A stretch of DNA of 64,000 bases, from positions 1-64,000 of the forward strand of contig JAAEPF010000025.1 of assembly GCA_024222295.1 (NCBI GenBank), read 5' to 3'. Source of the DNA: Actinomycetes bacterium. Its GTDB lineage: Bacteria; Actinomycetota; Acidimicrobiia; Acidimicrobiales; Microtrichaceae. Both the position numbers and the translations under genes were made by a program. The notes under the pieces are model-generated. The model had not been told where the DNA came from. It saw nothing but the letters and a program-made list of their open reading frames with translations, and ran no database searches. Shown here piece by piece: positions 25,218 through 41,038 of the stretch (position 1 is the stretch's first letter; the number at the start of each line of letters is the position of its first letter).

Positions 25218-25667
25218 CTACTCGACGACCCGCACGCCGCCGATCATCCCCTTGGTCTTCGTACCGTGCAGGGAGCAGTAGTACGGGTAGTCACCAACCT
25301 CGTCGAAGGTGATGGTGCCCACGTCGCCCGGGTCGAACTCATCGGCTTCGATCGGCGTGAAGGCGCCCTCTTCGACGGGAAGCACGTTGTGCACGTTGCG
25401 GCCCACGTTGTCGAAGGTGACTGTGGTACCGGCGGTCACCTCGATGTACTTGGGCTTGAACACATTGTCGCGGGAGTCGACGGTGACCTCTGACTCGCCG
25501 GTCTCGTCCTTGATGTCGCCTTCGTCCATCAGTGCGAGGGCCTCGGCGGTCTCCGCTGCGGCGCCATCGTCACCAGAGCTGCTGTCGCCACCAGAGTCGT
25601 CGCTGCTGCAGCCCGCGACGAGGAGCAACGTGGCTGCTACGAATGTGGTCAGAGTTCGGCTGGCCAT
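25218..25667 (-). CDS. Plastocyanin-like cupredoxin lipoprotein
   Basis: The 149-residue product has a lipobox (LLVAGC, Cys20), a Ser/Asp/Gly linker, and a cupredoxin domain from about residue 55. Type 1 copper ligands are visible: His93 (NVHNV), Cys131, His134 (YYCSLHGT) and Met141. It is probably an electron carrier on the outer face of the membrane, or a copper carrier. A TAGCGT hexamer is exactly 6 nt before the ATG, so the mRNA should be leaderless, divergent from tRNA-Gly. Confidence 0.88.
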   Translation of the reverse strand: MASRTLTTFVAATLLLVAGCSSDDSGGDSSSGDDGAAAETAEALALMDEGDIKDETGESEVTVDSRDNVFKPKYIEVTAGTTVTFDNVGRNVHNVLPVEEGAFTPIEADEFDPGDVGTITFDEVGDYPYYCSLHGTKTKGMIGGVRVVE

Positions 25668-25673
25668 GGGTGG

Positions 25674-25683
25674 ACGCTACACT
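25674..25683. promoter_or_regulatory. Shared divergent promoter of the cupredoxin gene and tRNA-Gly
   Basis: On - TAGCGT (25679-25674) precedes the cupredoxin ATG by 6 nt. On + TACACT (25678-25683) precedes the tRNA-Gly 5' end by 11 nt. The two hexamers share the TA step at 25678-25679. Confidence 0.55.
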
Positions 25684-25694
25684 CGCCCGTTCAC

Positions 25695-25768
25695 GCGGCC
25701 ATAGTTCAATGGTAGAACTCCAGGCTTCCATCCTGATGATGCGGGTTCGATTCCCGCTGGCCGCTCCA
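25695..25768 (+). tRNA. tRNA-Gly (anticodon TCC)
   Basis: The acceptor stem GCGGCCA pairs with TGGCCGC, followed by TCCA, so CCA is encoded. The anticodon loop CTTCCAT carries TCC, and the T arm is GCGGG-TTCGATT-CCCGC. The start codon of the acyl-CoA dehydrogenase gene is at 25770, one base after the CCA end. Confidence 0.96.
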
Positions 25769-25769
25769 G

Positions 25770-26984
25770 ATGACTGAGTTTCCGACTGACACAGACGGAC
25801 AGCGGGTCGAAAAGGCCCTCCGGGCCCTGCTCGACGAGCATGACCCGGCTGCGGAATCACCCGCAGAGTTCCGTGGCCACCAGTACGACGCCGGGCTCGC
25901 CTGGGTGTACTTCGACGAAGGCGCGGGCGGCATGGGCGTGCGCCCGGAGTTGCAGGCACCTCTCGAACGCGGGTTGCGCGCTGCCGGTCTTGCGCCCCGC
26001 GAGCCGGTGGAGTTCTTCATCCACCTCGCCGGACCCACGATTGCCACCCACGGCACCCAGGCGCAGAAGGACCGCTTCCTGCGCCCGATGTTCACCGGCG
26101 AGGAACTGTGGTGCCAGCTGTTCAGCGAACCGGGCGCCGGCAGCGACTTCGCCGGTCTCGCGTGCCGGGCCGTCGAGGACGGCGACGAGTGGACGGTGGA
26201 TGGGCAGAAGGTGTGGAACACCCTGGCCCACCTGGCGGACTGGGGCATGCTGGTCACCCGCTCCGACCCGGACGCCCCGAAGCACAAGGGCATGACCTAC
26301 TTCGCGCTGGACATGCACGCGGCCGGCGTGGAAGTACGTCCACTGCGCCAGATCACGGGCGAGGCCGAATTCAACGAGGTCTACCTCACCGACGCCCGCA
26401 TCCCCGACGCCAACCGCATCGGCGAACGTGGCGAAGGCTGGCGGGTGGCACTGACCACACTCGGCAACGAACGCAACGCGATCGGCGGAGTGCAGTCCTC
26501 CGAACCCAAGCGTGGCTCCGGACCGGTCAGCGGCCTGGTGGAGATGTGGAAGGCGCTCCCGGCCGACCAGCGCGACCCCGTGGCGAAGGACCGGATGATG
26601 GACCTGTGGGTGCGGGCCGAGGTACTGCGGCTCACCAACATCCGTGCGGCGTCGGCCCGCAAGGCCGGCAATCCCGGCCCCGAGGGTTCGATCGCCAAGT
26701 TGGCGTTCACGAAGCTCAACCAGCAGATCACCGAGGCCGAAGTCGACCTGCTCGGCCCGGCCGGGCTGATCGACTACGACTTCACCTTTCGCCGCCCGGA
26801 GAGCATGTCGATCACCGGAGAGGGCCACAGCCCGGGCTATGCCTTCCTGCGGTCCCGTGCCAACACGATCGAGGGCGGCTCGAGCGAGGTCATGCGCAAC
26901 ATCCTCGGCGAGCAGGTGCTCGGGCTTCCGGGCGAACCAAGGGTTGACAAGGGAATCCCCTGGAAGGACGTGCCCCGCAGCTAG
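25770..26984 (+). CDS. Acyl-CoA dehydrogenase family protein
   Basis: The 404-residue FAD enzyme has family motifs LWCQLFSEPGAGSDFAGL (flavin and substrate site), WTVDGQKVWNTLAHLADWGMLVTRSD, and the C-terminal EGGSSEVMRNILGEQVLGLP. It oxidises an acyl-CoA thioester; the actinobacterial subtype is often tied to steroid or branched-acid breakdown, which is inference. The ATG lies one base after the tRNA-Gly CCA end, and no ribosome binding site is possible outside the tRNA. The mRNA may thus be released leaderless by tRNA 3' processing. Confidence 0.9.
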   Translation: MTEFPTDTDGQRVEKALRALLDEHDPAAESPAEFRGHQYDAGLAWVYFDEGAGGMGVRPELQAPLERGLRAAGLAPREPVEFFIHLAGPTIATHGTQAQKDRFLRPMFTGEELWCQLFSEPGAGSDFAGLACRAVEDGDEWTVDGQKVWNTLAHLADWGMLVTRSDPDAPKHKGMTYFALDMHAAGVEVRPLRQITGEAEFNEVYLTDARIPDANRIGERGEGWRVALTTLGNERNAIGGVQSSEPKRGSGPVSGLVEMWKALPADQRDPVAKDRMMDLWVRAEVLRLTNIRAASARKAGNPGPEGSIAKLAFTKLNQQITEAEVDLLGPAGLIDYDFTFRRPESMSITGEGHSPGYAFLRSRANTIEGGSSEVMRNILGEQVLGLPGEPRVDKGIPWKDVPRS

Positions 26985-39844: not shown

Positions 39845-40963
39845 TCACGGCTGGACCGCCTCCATCGAGCCCTCGCGCACCATGAGCCTGGAGGTGTCGA
39901 CCACCTCCAGGTCATCGGTTGTCAGGGTCTTGAGTGTGGCCAGGTCGTCGTCGTCCCAACGCGCGTCGGGGGTGCCGGACAGCGAGAAGGATCCTCCGGT
40001 GTCTCCGAGGATCACACCGTGGGTCTGCATGGCCCGGGCGACAACCTGCGCCTGTGGTCCGAGCGCGGACAGATCGACGTCCTTGCGCAACCGGAACCAG
40101 GTGCCCATCGGCGGCGCATCGGGGTCCTCGCTGGGTCCGTCGGACGCCCGGGCAGGCCAGACGTGCGCCCCGCCGACGACCGGGCTGCCCACGAAGATCG
40201 CATGGTCCACCGATCCTGCGGCCACCTGCTCGTAGGTGATGGTCATCGGCTGCATCGGGAATCCCGAAGCCGTGGTGCGGCCCTTGGGGTACTGCAGGGA
40301 ATCGAGATTCCAGATGGCACCCGAACCGGCGCGCCACGAGCCGAACCACTTGCGCGTCGCCCACATCTCCCACATGCGACGCTGCTCGAGGTCGATTCCG
40401 ATGTAGTGCTCGTCGATCCCGTACCAGGGCATCGACTGGATGTAGGCCGGGTCGGTGATCGGGTAGCTGCCCTCATCGCTGCCGGCAGGAAGTGTGAAGC
40501 GGACCTCATGGGTCGGCGTGTCGGCCGACACGAGGTTGAATGGCTTGCCGGCAACCCGGCCGTTACTCACCTTCGAAGCGGCGTAGGGCTGCAGGGGCAG
40601 AGAGCCGAGCGCGTCGATGTTGGCGTTGGACTCCGCAGCCACGGGCAGGTCCCCCACGGTGCGGTAGAAGAACGCCTCATCCGCGAACAGCCGGGGCAAC
40701 GGCGGGAACTCCGGCACGGTGAACTGTGGCGGCCAGTTCACCCAGCCGACGAGCAGGGCCACCACGATGAGCACCGCACTGGCGAGCAACCCGACCGGTC
40801 GACGGCGCGGCTTGTCGCGACGGCGTCGCCGGACCCTCAGCACGACCGACACGACCAGGATCGTGACCGCGAGAGCGCCCAGGAGCACCGCCATGCCCAA
40901 CAGGAACTGCTGGGAGCCGGGCAACATGACCTCCGCCGGGCCGGTGATGTCGTTCTGGTCCAC
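39845..40963 (-). CDS. Membrane-anchored protein of unknown function
   Basis: The 372-residue product has two predicted membrane helices (residues 20-42 and 57-76) separated by a very basic loop (RVRRRRRDKPRRR), then a long outside domain. The domain has YIQSMPWYGIDEHYIGID, HAIFVGSPVVGGAHVWPARASDGP and, near the end, a pattern of long Arg/Asp segments with MQTHGVILGDTGGSFSLSGTPDARWDDDDL. That last part recalls a domain seen in plant and bacterial secreted proteins with no named activity. GTG 40963 starts one base after the tRNA-Arg 3' end. ATG 40927, with GGAGG very close, is an alternative start. Confidence 0.7.
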   Translation of the reverse strand: MDQNDITGPAEVMLPGSQQFLLGMAVLLGALAVTILVVSVVLRVRRRRRDKPRRRPVGLLASAVLIVVALLVGWVNWPPQFTVPEFPPLPRLFADEAFFYRTVGDLPVAAESNANIDALGSLPLQPYAASKVSNGRVAGKPFNLVSADTPTHEVRFTLPAGSDEGSYPITDPAYIQSMPWYGIDEHYIGIDLEQRRMWEMWATRKWFGSWRAGSGAIWNLDSLQYPKGRTTASGFPMQPMTITYEQVAAGSVDHAIFVGSPVVGGAHVWPARASDGPSEDPDAPPMGTWFRLRKDVDLSALGPQAQVVARAMQTHGVILGDTGGSFSLSGTPDARWDDDDLATLKTLTTDDLEVVDTSRLMVREGSMEAVQP

Positions 40964-40964
40964 G

Positions 40965-41038
40965 CGCCCCCGGCAGGATTCGAACCTGCGACCGTCGGAT
41001 TAGAAGTCCGATGCTCTGTCCAGCTGAGCTACGGGGGC
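40965..41038 (-). tRNA. tRNA-Arg (anticodon TCT)
   Basis: The acceptor stem GCCCCCG pairs with CGGGGGC, with discriminator G. The anticodon arm CGGA-CTTCTAA-TCCG carries TCT, and the T arm is GCAGG-TTCGAAT-CCTGC. CCA is not encoded. The downstream gene starts at 40963, one base after the mature 3' end. Confidence 0.96.

Follow-up and report, generated by a model that had tools for sequence, protein, structure and literature searches.

In mitochondria, tRNAs adjoin the start codons of protein genes, their excision sets the 5' ends of the mRNAs and the resulting messages are leaderless, an arrangement described as tRNA punctuation. The locus presented here lies in a window of 64,000 nucleotides (the whole stretch of DNA that was analysed) from a member of the Acidimicrobiales. 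As in mitochondria, a tRNA abuts a start codon on the same strand and leaves no room for a leader; excision of the tRNA would define the 5' end of the mRNA, which would then be leaderless. Unlike in mitochondria, the layout concerns a minority of the tRNAs (five of 45-46), each with a short transcription unit of its own, the organism is a bacterium, and many of its other genes appear to be leaderless by way of their own promoter.

Leaderless mRNAs occur in actinobacteria, and a study of C. glutamicum gives their share as 33% (PMC3890552). The present junctions resemble the leaderless mRNAs treated in passages on C. glutamicum, P. acnes and S. coelicolor (PMC3890552, PMC3848588, PMC4681348) in that AUG or GUG lies at or near the predicted 5' end, a Shine-Dalgarno (SD) sequence is absent and relatives of the genes often show a -10 box beside the start. 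They differ in that the 5' end would arise by RNA cutting, with a monophosphate, and not by transcription initiation. According to a review, leaderless translation needs a 5' phosphate and drops with the distance of the AUG from the 5' end (PMC9031893), which fits a predicted monophosphate end located 0-4 nt from the AUG.

RNA ends made by cutting are also described. In the dicistronic tRNA-snoRNA and tRNA-sRNA genes of plants and archaea (N. equitans, T. kodakarensis), which are cut by RNase Z according to passages of PMC3491384 and PMC4247193, cutting at the tRNA 3' end also forms the start of the RNA that follows, as proposed here, but the downstream RNA in our case is an mRNA beginning at its start codon. 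The MazF-made leaderless mRNAs of E. coli (passages in PMC3848588 and PMC9031893), disputed according to the latter review, are likewise produced by cutting; there a toxin acts under stress, whereas a housekeeping maturation step would act here. Also comparable are the tRNA 3' cuts mapped between the two Cs of CCA in P. acnes (PMC3848588) and, for S. coelicolor, between the Cs in the majority of 12 tRNAs that encode CCA (PMC4681348). The same site would leave AUG or GUG exactly at the 5' end wherever the start codon directly follows the first C. The passages in question concern tRNA maturation only, not mRNA starts, and name no nuclease for the cut. No bacterial precedent for mRNA starts made at tRNA ends was recognised in searches of an open-access library.

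On the strength of the comparisons given below, we consider it fairly probable that in this lineage the 3' cut of a tRNA makes a near-leaderless mRNA and has taken the place of the leaderless promoter, a -10 box located 5-9 nt ahead of the start codon, which is often found in unfused relatives of the same genes. The tRNA and the downstream gene would form one transcription unit, and the endonuclease that forms tRNA 3' ends would cut at the discriminator/CCA, most likely between nucleotides 74 and 75. This cut would free an mRNA with a leader of 0-4 nt and a 5'-monophosphate, to be translated as a leaderless mRNA.

The tRNA-Gly(TCC)/acyl-CoA dehydrogenase junction

The preliminary description of this DNA placed the end of a tRNA-Gly with encoded CCA at 25768 and the ATG of an acyl-CoA dehydrogenase (ACAD) gene one base further, at 25770, and both were borne out by ARAGORN, Rfam and the sequence. 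The tRNA-Gly(TCC) gene occupies 25695-25768 on the forward strand; the Rfam tRNA model scored 70.6 bits over 25695-25765 and ends at the discriminator (25765), which is followed by C74 (25766), C75 (25767) and A76 (25768). A single G (25769) separates the CCA end from the ATG (25770-25772), so that the junction reads CCAG (25766-25769). Throughout, d stands for the number of nucleotides between the discriminator and the earliest start of a coding-like open reading frame (ORF), with pairs scored within 200 nt; for the ACAD gene d=4. The gene (25770-26984, forward strand) encodes 404 amino acids, beginning MTEFPTDTDG, and has no leader outside the tRNA. Its N-terminal, middle and C-terminal domains (PF02771, PF02770, PF00441) all score above the Pfam cut-off, and no equivalog cut-off was reached against NCBIfam.

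The earlier statement that no leader or ribosome site fits outside the tRNA also holds, as no SD-like or TAnnnT sequence was seen between the T arm and the ATG when the sequence was read by eye. The leaderless-type -10 box expected about 6-7 nt before a start is absent at the fused junction, and a search for sigma-70-type two-box promoters over 25500-25900 gave no promoter-like site (0.1 expected). A putative -10 element of the tRNA-Gly transcription unit (TACACT, 25678-25683, forward strand) lies 11 nt 5' of the tRNA and is proposed from consensus resemblance only. In the predicted fold of a joint tRNA-Gly/ACAD transcript, the cloverleaf and the full acceptor stem are kept, with the AUG just outside. 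In the assembly, whose stated completeness is 97%, no tRNA-Gly(TCC) was seen besides the copy at 25695.

The ATG at 25770 is the first start of the ORF, whose frame is closed by an in-frame TGA at 25737 within the tRNA. A later start, which would speak against the proposal, was looked for, and the next in-frame ATG or GTG is found only at codon 46, within the conserved EFRGHQYDAGLAWV region common to relatives. Taken together, the TGA in the tRNA and the position of the next start leave the ATG at 25770 as the sole common start that retains the conserved N-terminal part of the enzyme. These data bear on the explanation that ACAD is made from a separate internal promoter and start, or hardly at all, and that the tRNA-adjacent ATG is unused. 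Such an explanation could draw on the lack of a promoter-like site 5' of the ATG once the tRNA region is set aside and on some relatives whose matches begin only at query residue 11-18. We regard it as quite improbable: the homology of relatives reaches residues 3-6, codon 46 lies inside conserved sequence with no TAnnnT 5-9 nt before it, and the 372-aa protein at the other junction of the window is conserved from residue 1.

Two points about this junction weigh against the proposal: the ACAD fusion was found only in the genome of the window (G000), and its d=4 differs from the most frequent value, d=1. The nearest relative with the tRNA (G001, protein 75% identical) has tRNA-Gly(TCC) 132 nt upstream of its ACAD gene and, despite this tRNA, a TAGGTT box 7 nt before the ATG.

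Upstream of the tRNA, a divergent cupredoxin-type gene (25218-25667, reverse strand) has TAGCGT six nt before its ATG. This box overlaps the putative tRNA -10 element on the opposite strand by 2 bp (region 25668-25683), and the start regions of both genes are squeezed into a common 27 bp.

Fusions at glmU and at the second junction of the window

The preliminary description had proposed a search of related genomes for a tRNA followed closely by a start codon, and this search showed that fusions recur at two other genes, glmU and a gene for a 372-aa protein. The tRNA-Gln(TTG)/glmU pair is the strongest and most informative case. In all 30 loci fetched from G000 and its relatives, tRNA-Gln(TTG) lies upstream of glmU. 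The glmU ATG is at d=1 in 13 of the 30 (CATG directly after the discriminator) and at d=2 in two (CCATG). Seven further loci, which fall in two separate lineages, have a mini-ORF with its ATG at d=2, 5 or 12 codons long, whose TGA overlaps the glmU ATG (ATGA). Among the remaining loci, seven are unfused and one (L113) has a d=2 ATG leading elsewhere than glmU. Where d=1, the conserved AIVLAAG-like motif lies anywhere from 31 to 70 nt from the discriminator; since d is fixed while this spacing varies, the glmU start follows the tRNA and not the protein.

A set of 36 publicly named glmU loci of Acidimicrobiia type, several of whose genomes are shared with the 30-locus set, contained 25 with the tRNA: 11 were fused in frame (six at d=1, three at d=2, two at d=4), six had a mini-ORF and eight were unfused. 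The Ilumatobacteraceae-type loci L171, L176, L178 and L358 are at d=2 or d=4. Beyond the order, 25 glmU loci were examined; tRNA-Gln precedes the gene in 14 of them, without a single fusion at d <= 4 among the 14, which indicates that the neighbourhood is old and the fusion younger. In a GlmU tree made by a quick method, for which five of 116 loci yielded no motif, the fused rows form a Microthrixaceae group and a separate group of Ilumatobacteraceae-labelled records and G038.

Some assignments were made by judgement. L105 (GTG at d=4) and L108 (GTG at d=3) were labelled fused by the script and counted as unfused, L108 for a TAGAAA box before a later ATG and L105 for a later GTG. L165-L167 were counted as unfused as well: the 11-codon frame that begins at their d=2 ATG stops at the TAG belonging to a -10-like box.

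Two observations concern the records themselves. The GlmU of G000 (L083, 1384-2475), with its 364 aa, covers TIGR01173 no further than position 344 of 452 and lacks the C-terminal part of the bifunctional enzyme. L147 and L150, from MAG records titled Bifidobacterium breve, have a glmU junction nearly identical to that of the isolate IMCC26207 (L151), which is of the mini-ORF type, and the titles look wrong.

The glmU loci also weigh on genome compaction as the only cause. By this account tRNA and gene share a transcript, ribosomes start on uncut or otherwise cut RNA without a defined 5' end, and the distance has no function. Tight packing is indeed usual here, the divergent cupredoxin start lying 27 bp from the tRNA, and an excess of d=1 across the order is absent. 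Against this, glmU keeps its start 1, 2 or 4 nt from the tRNA across loci in which the distance to the protein motif varies, the mini-ORFs begin at the same spot, and the ATG adjoins a folded tRNA. Furthermore, an SD-like string precedes the script-chosen start in none of the 24 fused glmU loci, some of which were scored at a start later than the junction ATG. We consider compaction alone rather unlikely.

At the second junction of the window, the preliminary description had seen the same layout at 40963. The abutting tRNA was found, a tRNA-Arg(TCT) on the reverse strand (40965-41038, discriminator at 40965, C74 at 40964), but its CCA is not encoded and the start codon is GTG. This GTG, at 40963, directly follows C74 (d=1) and opens a gene for a 372-aa protein (39845-40963, reverse strand), for which no Pfam or NCBIfam family was found, the Pfam search having used the first 251 aa only. 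The N-terminus MDQNDITGPAEVMLPG aligns from residue 1 with the orthologues in G016 and G001 (VDQNDITGP in G000, MDQSDILGP in G016, MDHGEIIGP in G001), and this alignment from the first residue supports GTG 40963 as the start. The gene is fused to tRNA-Arg(TCT) in G000 (GTG, d=1), G016 (ATG, d=3) and G015 (ATG, d=1); in the remaining loci examined the upstream tRNA is absent or more distant. In G001, where the gene is unfused, TATGGT stands 8 nt before the ATG and the first residue is homologous.

Frequency of the layout and -10 boxes in unfused relatives

A coding-like ORF begins no more than 200 nt beyond the discriminator at 23 of the 46 tRNAs in G000, the d values being 1, 1, 1, 2, 4, 6, 8, 11 and more. 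Five of these 23 pairs are at d <= 4, where a uniform distribution predicts 0.57 (binomial P 2.2e-4). They are Arg-CCT with a 153-aa protein (weak F420-reductase match), Gln-TTG with glmU, Arg-TCT with the 372-aa protein, Lys-TTT with a 747-aa protein (glycosyl hydrolase 31 domains) and Gly-TCC with ACAD. G016 has three of 20 pairs at d <= 4 (P 0.013), and in G010 glmU is the sole case. Six genomes pooled gave 9 of 83 pairs at d <= 4 (2.06 expected, P 2.3e-4), the nine representing just six distinct tRNA-gene pairs. G008 was excluded from the distance statistics since the GC3 coding filter fails there. With the ORF filter, no start at d <= 4 came from G004, G034 and G038, whose tRNA sets are partial. 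G000 does not show genome-wide polycistrons in which most tRNAs act as punctuation; five of its 46 tRNAs have a start at d <= 4.

A tRNA-like pattern was further applied to 198 genomes of the order. An ATG after a single C, at d=1, gave 29 matches versus 51 for ATG at d=5; there is no raw excess, and a general rule for the order was rejected on these counts. The check covered all 29 loci at d=1 and 30 of the 51 at d=5; a coding-like ORF began at the ATG for 8 of 22 tRNAs (d=1) versus 3 of 21 (d=5), a weak difference. Because the pattern covers a single T-loop spelling (GGTTCGANTCC), the majority of the family's glmU fusions escape it. Within the order the layout is not widespread but clusters at glmU and in a small number of genomes, G000 foremost among those fully sampled.

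These figures bear on coincidence, the explanation that a few chance abutments are expected among about 45 tRNAs and that two of them were noticed. The raw order-wide counts agree with it, as do G010 with its glmU case only and the empty partial sets of G004, G034 and G038. Against it stand the probabilities obtained in G000 and G016, together with the glmU and 372-aa gene fusions that different genera share, and chance seems very improbable.

Several further tRNA ends with a long coding-like ORF at d=1-3 were observed at L288 (G016), L499, L503 and L512; the tRNAs are Pro-CGG (GTG start, 219 codons within the part fetched), Arg-CCT (296), Arg-TCT (223) and Leu-TAG (501, open). In G038, which also carries the fused tRNA-Gln/glmU, a tRNA-Leu(CAA) at C1:2488831-2488856 (L490) is followed by a 95-codon coding-like ORF at d=1.

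The unfused relatives show what the fused genes may have lost. A -10-like box (e.g. TAGAAC) stands 5-7 nt before the start in 32 of 44 unfused Acidimicrobiales glmU loci (2, 0, 0, 1 and 0 in shifted windows); the expression TA[AG][AG][AC]N was chosen after inspection of the sequences, with several candidate starts tried, and the same expression served in the shifted windows as control. With TAnnnT and a nearest-start rule the count was 0 of 44, in part since GTG codons within the protein were picked as starts by this rule and since the box has the form TAGAA(A/C). The corresponding count in fused glmU loci, 0 of 24, is near-trivial because the box position there is the tRNA. For ACAD, TAnnnT occurs 4-9 nt before the start in 12 of 28 loci (controls 0, 0, 1, 2, 0, 2); for the 372-aa gene the figure is 5 of 11 (controls 0, 1, 0, 0, 0, 1). 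Within the window, TAnnnT precedes a start by 6-7 nt in 11 of 52 gene-like ORFs (shifted controls 0-4), and this proportion of about one fifth is as would be expected for promoter-made leaderless mRNAs. Genes that look promoter-leaderless elsewhere thus now sit at tRNA ends, where there is no room for a promoter, and the boxes in unfused relatives of the three fused genes make leaderless translation of these genes plausible.

Predicted cut site and possible biological meaning

All 208 scored tRNA genes (G000, G016, G010, G008, G004, G034, G038) have C at nucleotide 74, two of 210 tRNA rows having been dropped for poor acceptor pairing or a short tail. CCA is encoded by 85 of the 208, and in the other 123 nucleotides 75, 76 and 77 are mixed. 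That C74 is constant when nucleotides 75 and 76 are not suggests a tRNA that retains C74, with the cut falling between 74 and 75. The idea that tRNA maturation creates a leaderless message is made plausible by the recurrence of the layout, the anchoring of glmU and the -10 boxes of relatives, although the cut is more likely to fall inside the CCA (between C74 and C75) than 3' of it, as the preliminary description had it. A cut between 74 and 75 would give 5'-AUG or 5'-GUG exactly at d=1 junctions and C-AUG at CCATG junctions. For ACAD, the conservation of C74 and the cuts mapped in P. acnes and S. coelicolor point to a site between 25766 and 25767, with 25765/25766 as the alternative; the mRNA is accordingly predicted to begin with CAG-AUG, or with CCAG-AUG if the cut follows the discriminator.

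C74 alone does not fix the cut, since it is also constant in G003 (23/23 non-CCA tRNAs), which has a canonical RNase Z, and is frequent in a Bacillus relative (16/23 non-CCA); in another actinobacterial class the count was 17/25. The constant C74 may bear on the actinobacterial 3' nuclease.

A genome scan of G000 for canonical RNase Z found no full-length TIGR02651 match, the best piece scoring 83.6 bits. A candidate protein scores 111.7 bits to TIGR02651 (cut-off 292.95) and 330.8 bits to NF000806 'ribonuclease Z' (cut-off 363). Six of 31 genomes contain a strong match to TIGR02651 (256-286 bits, in each case short of 292.95). Among the 16 family members for which both kinds of data exist, a fused glmU (mini-ORFs included) occurs in 11 of 12 without versus 0 of 4 with a strong match (Fisher 0.0027). 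This association was not built on: three of the four enzyme-bearers belong to one clade, and L105 is unfused by judgement only. It is further weakened by several members of the order that are unfused without the enzyme, by the NF000806-named protein of G000 and by the constant C74 of G003.

A wider reading is held tentatively, with a confidence somewhat short of even. By it, an Acidimicrobiales nuclease cutting between nucleotides 74 and 75 would double as the 5'-end former of exactly or almost exactly leaderless mRNAs for a set of genes that includes the essential glmU and a fatty-acid enzyme. The promoters and maturation of tRNAs would set the expression of these genes, and a promoter would repeatedly have been swapped for a tRNA end, as a bacterial counterpart of mitochondrial tRNA punctuation.

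The model predicts exact mRNA 5' ends. If it is true, housekeeping tRNA cutting would be a third bacterial route to leaderless mRNAs, besides promoters and toxin nucleases, and the supply of the proteins would be tied to the transcription and maturation of tRNAs. There would be a simple evolutionary path between promoter-made and cut-made messages, and the mitochondrial layout would look independently reachable by bacteria. The actinobacterial nuclease that cuts inside the CCA would in this case become a factor of gene expression.
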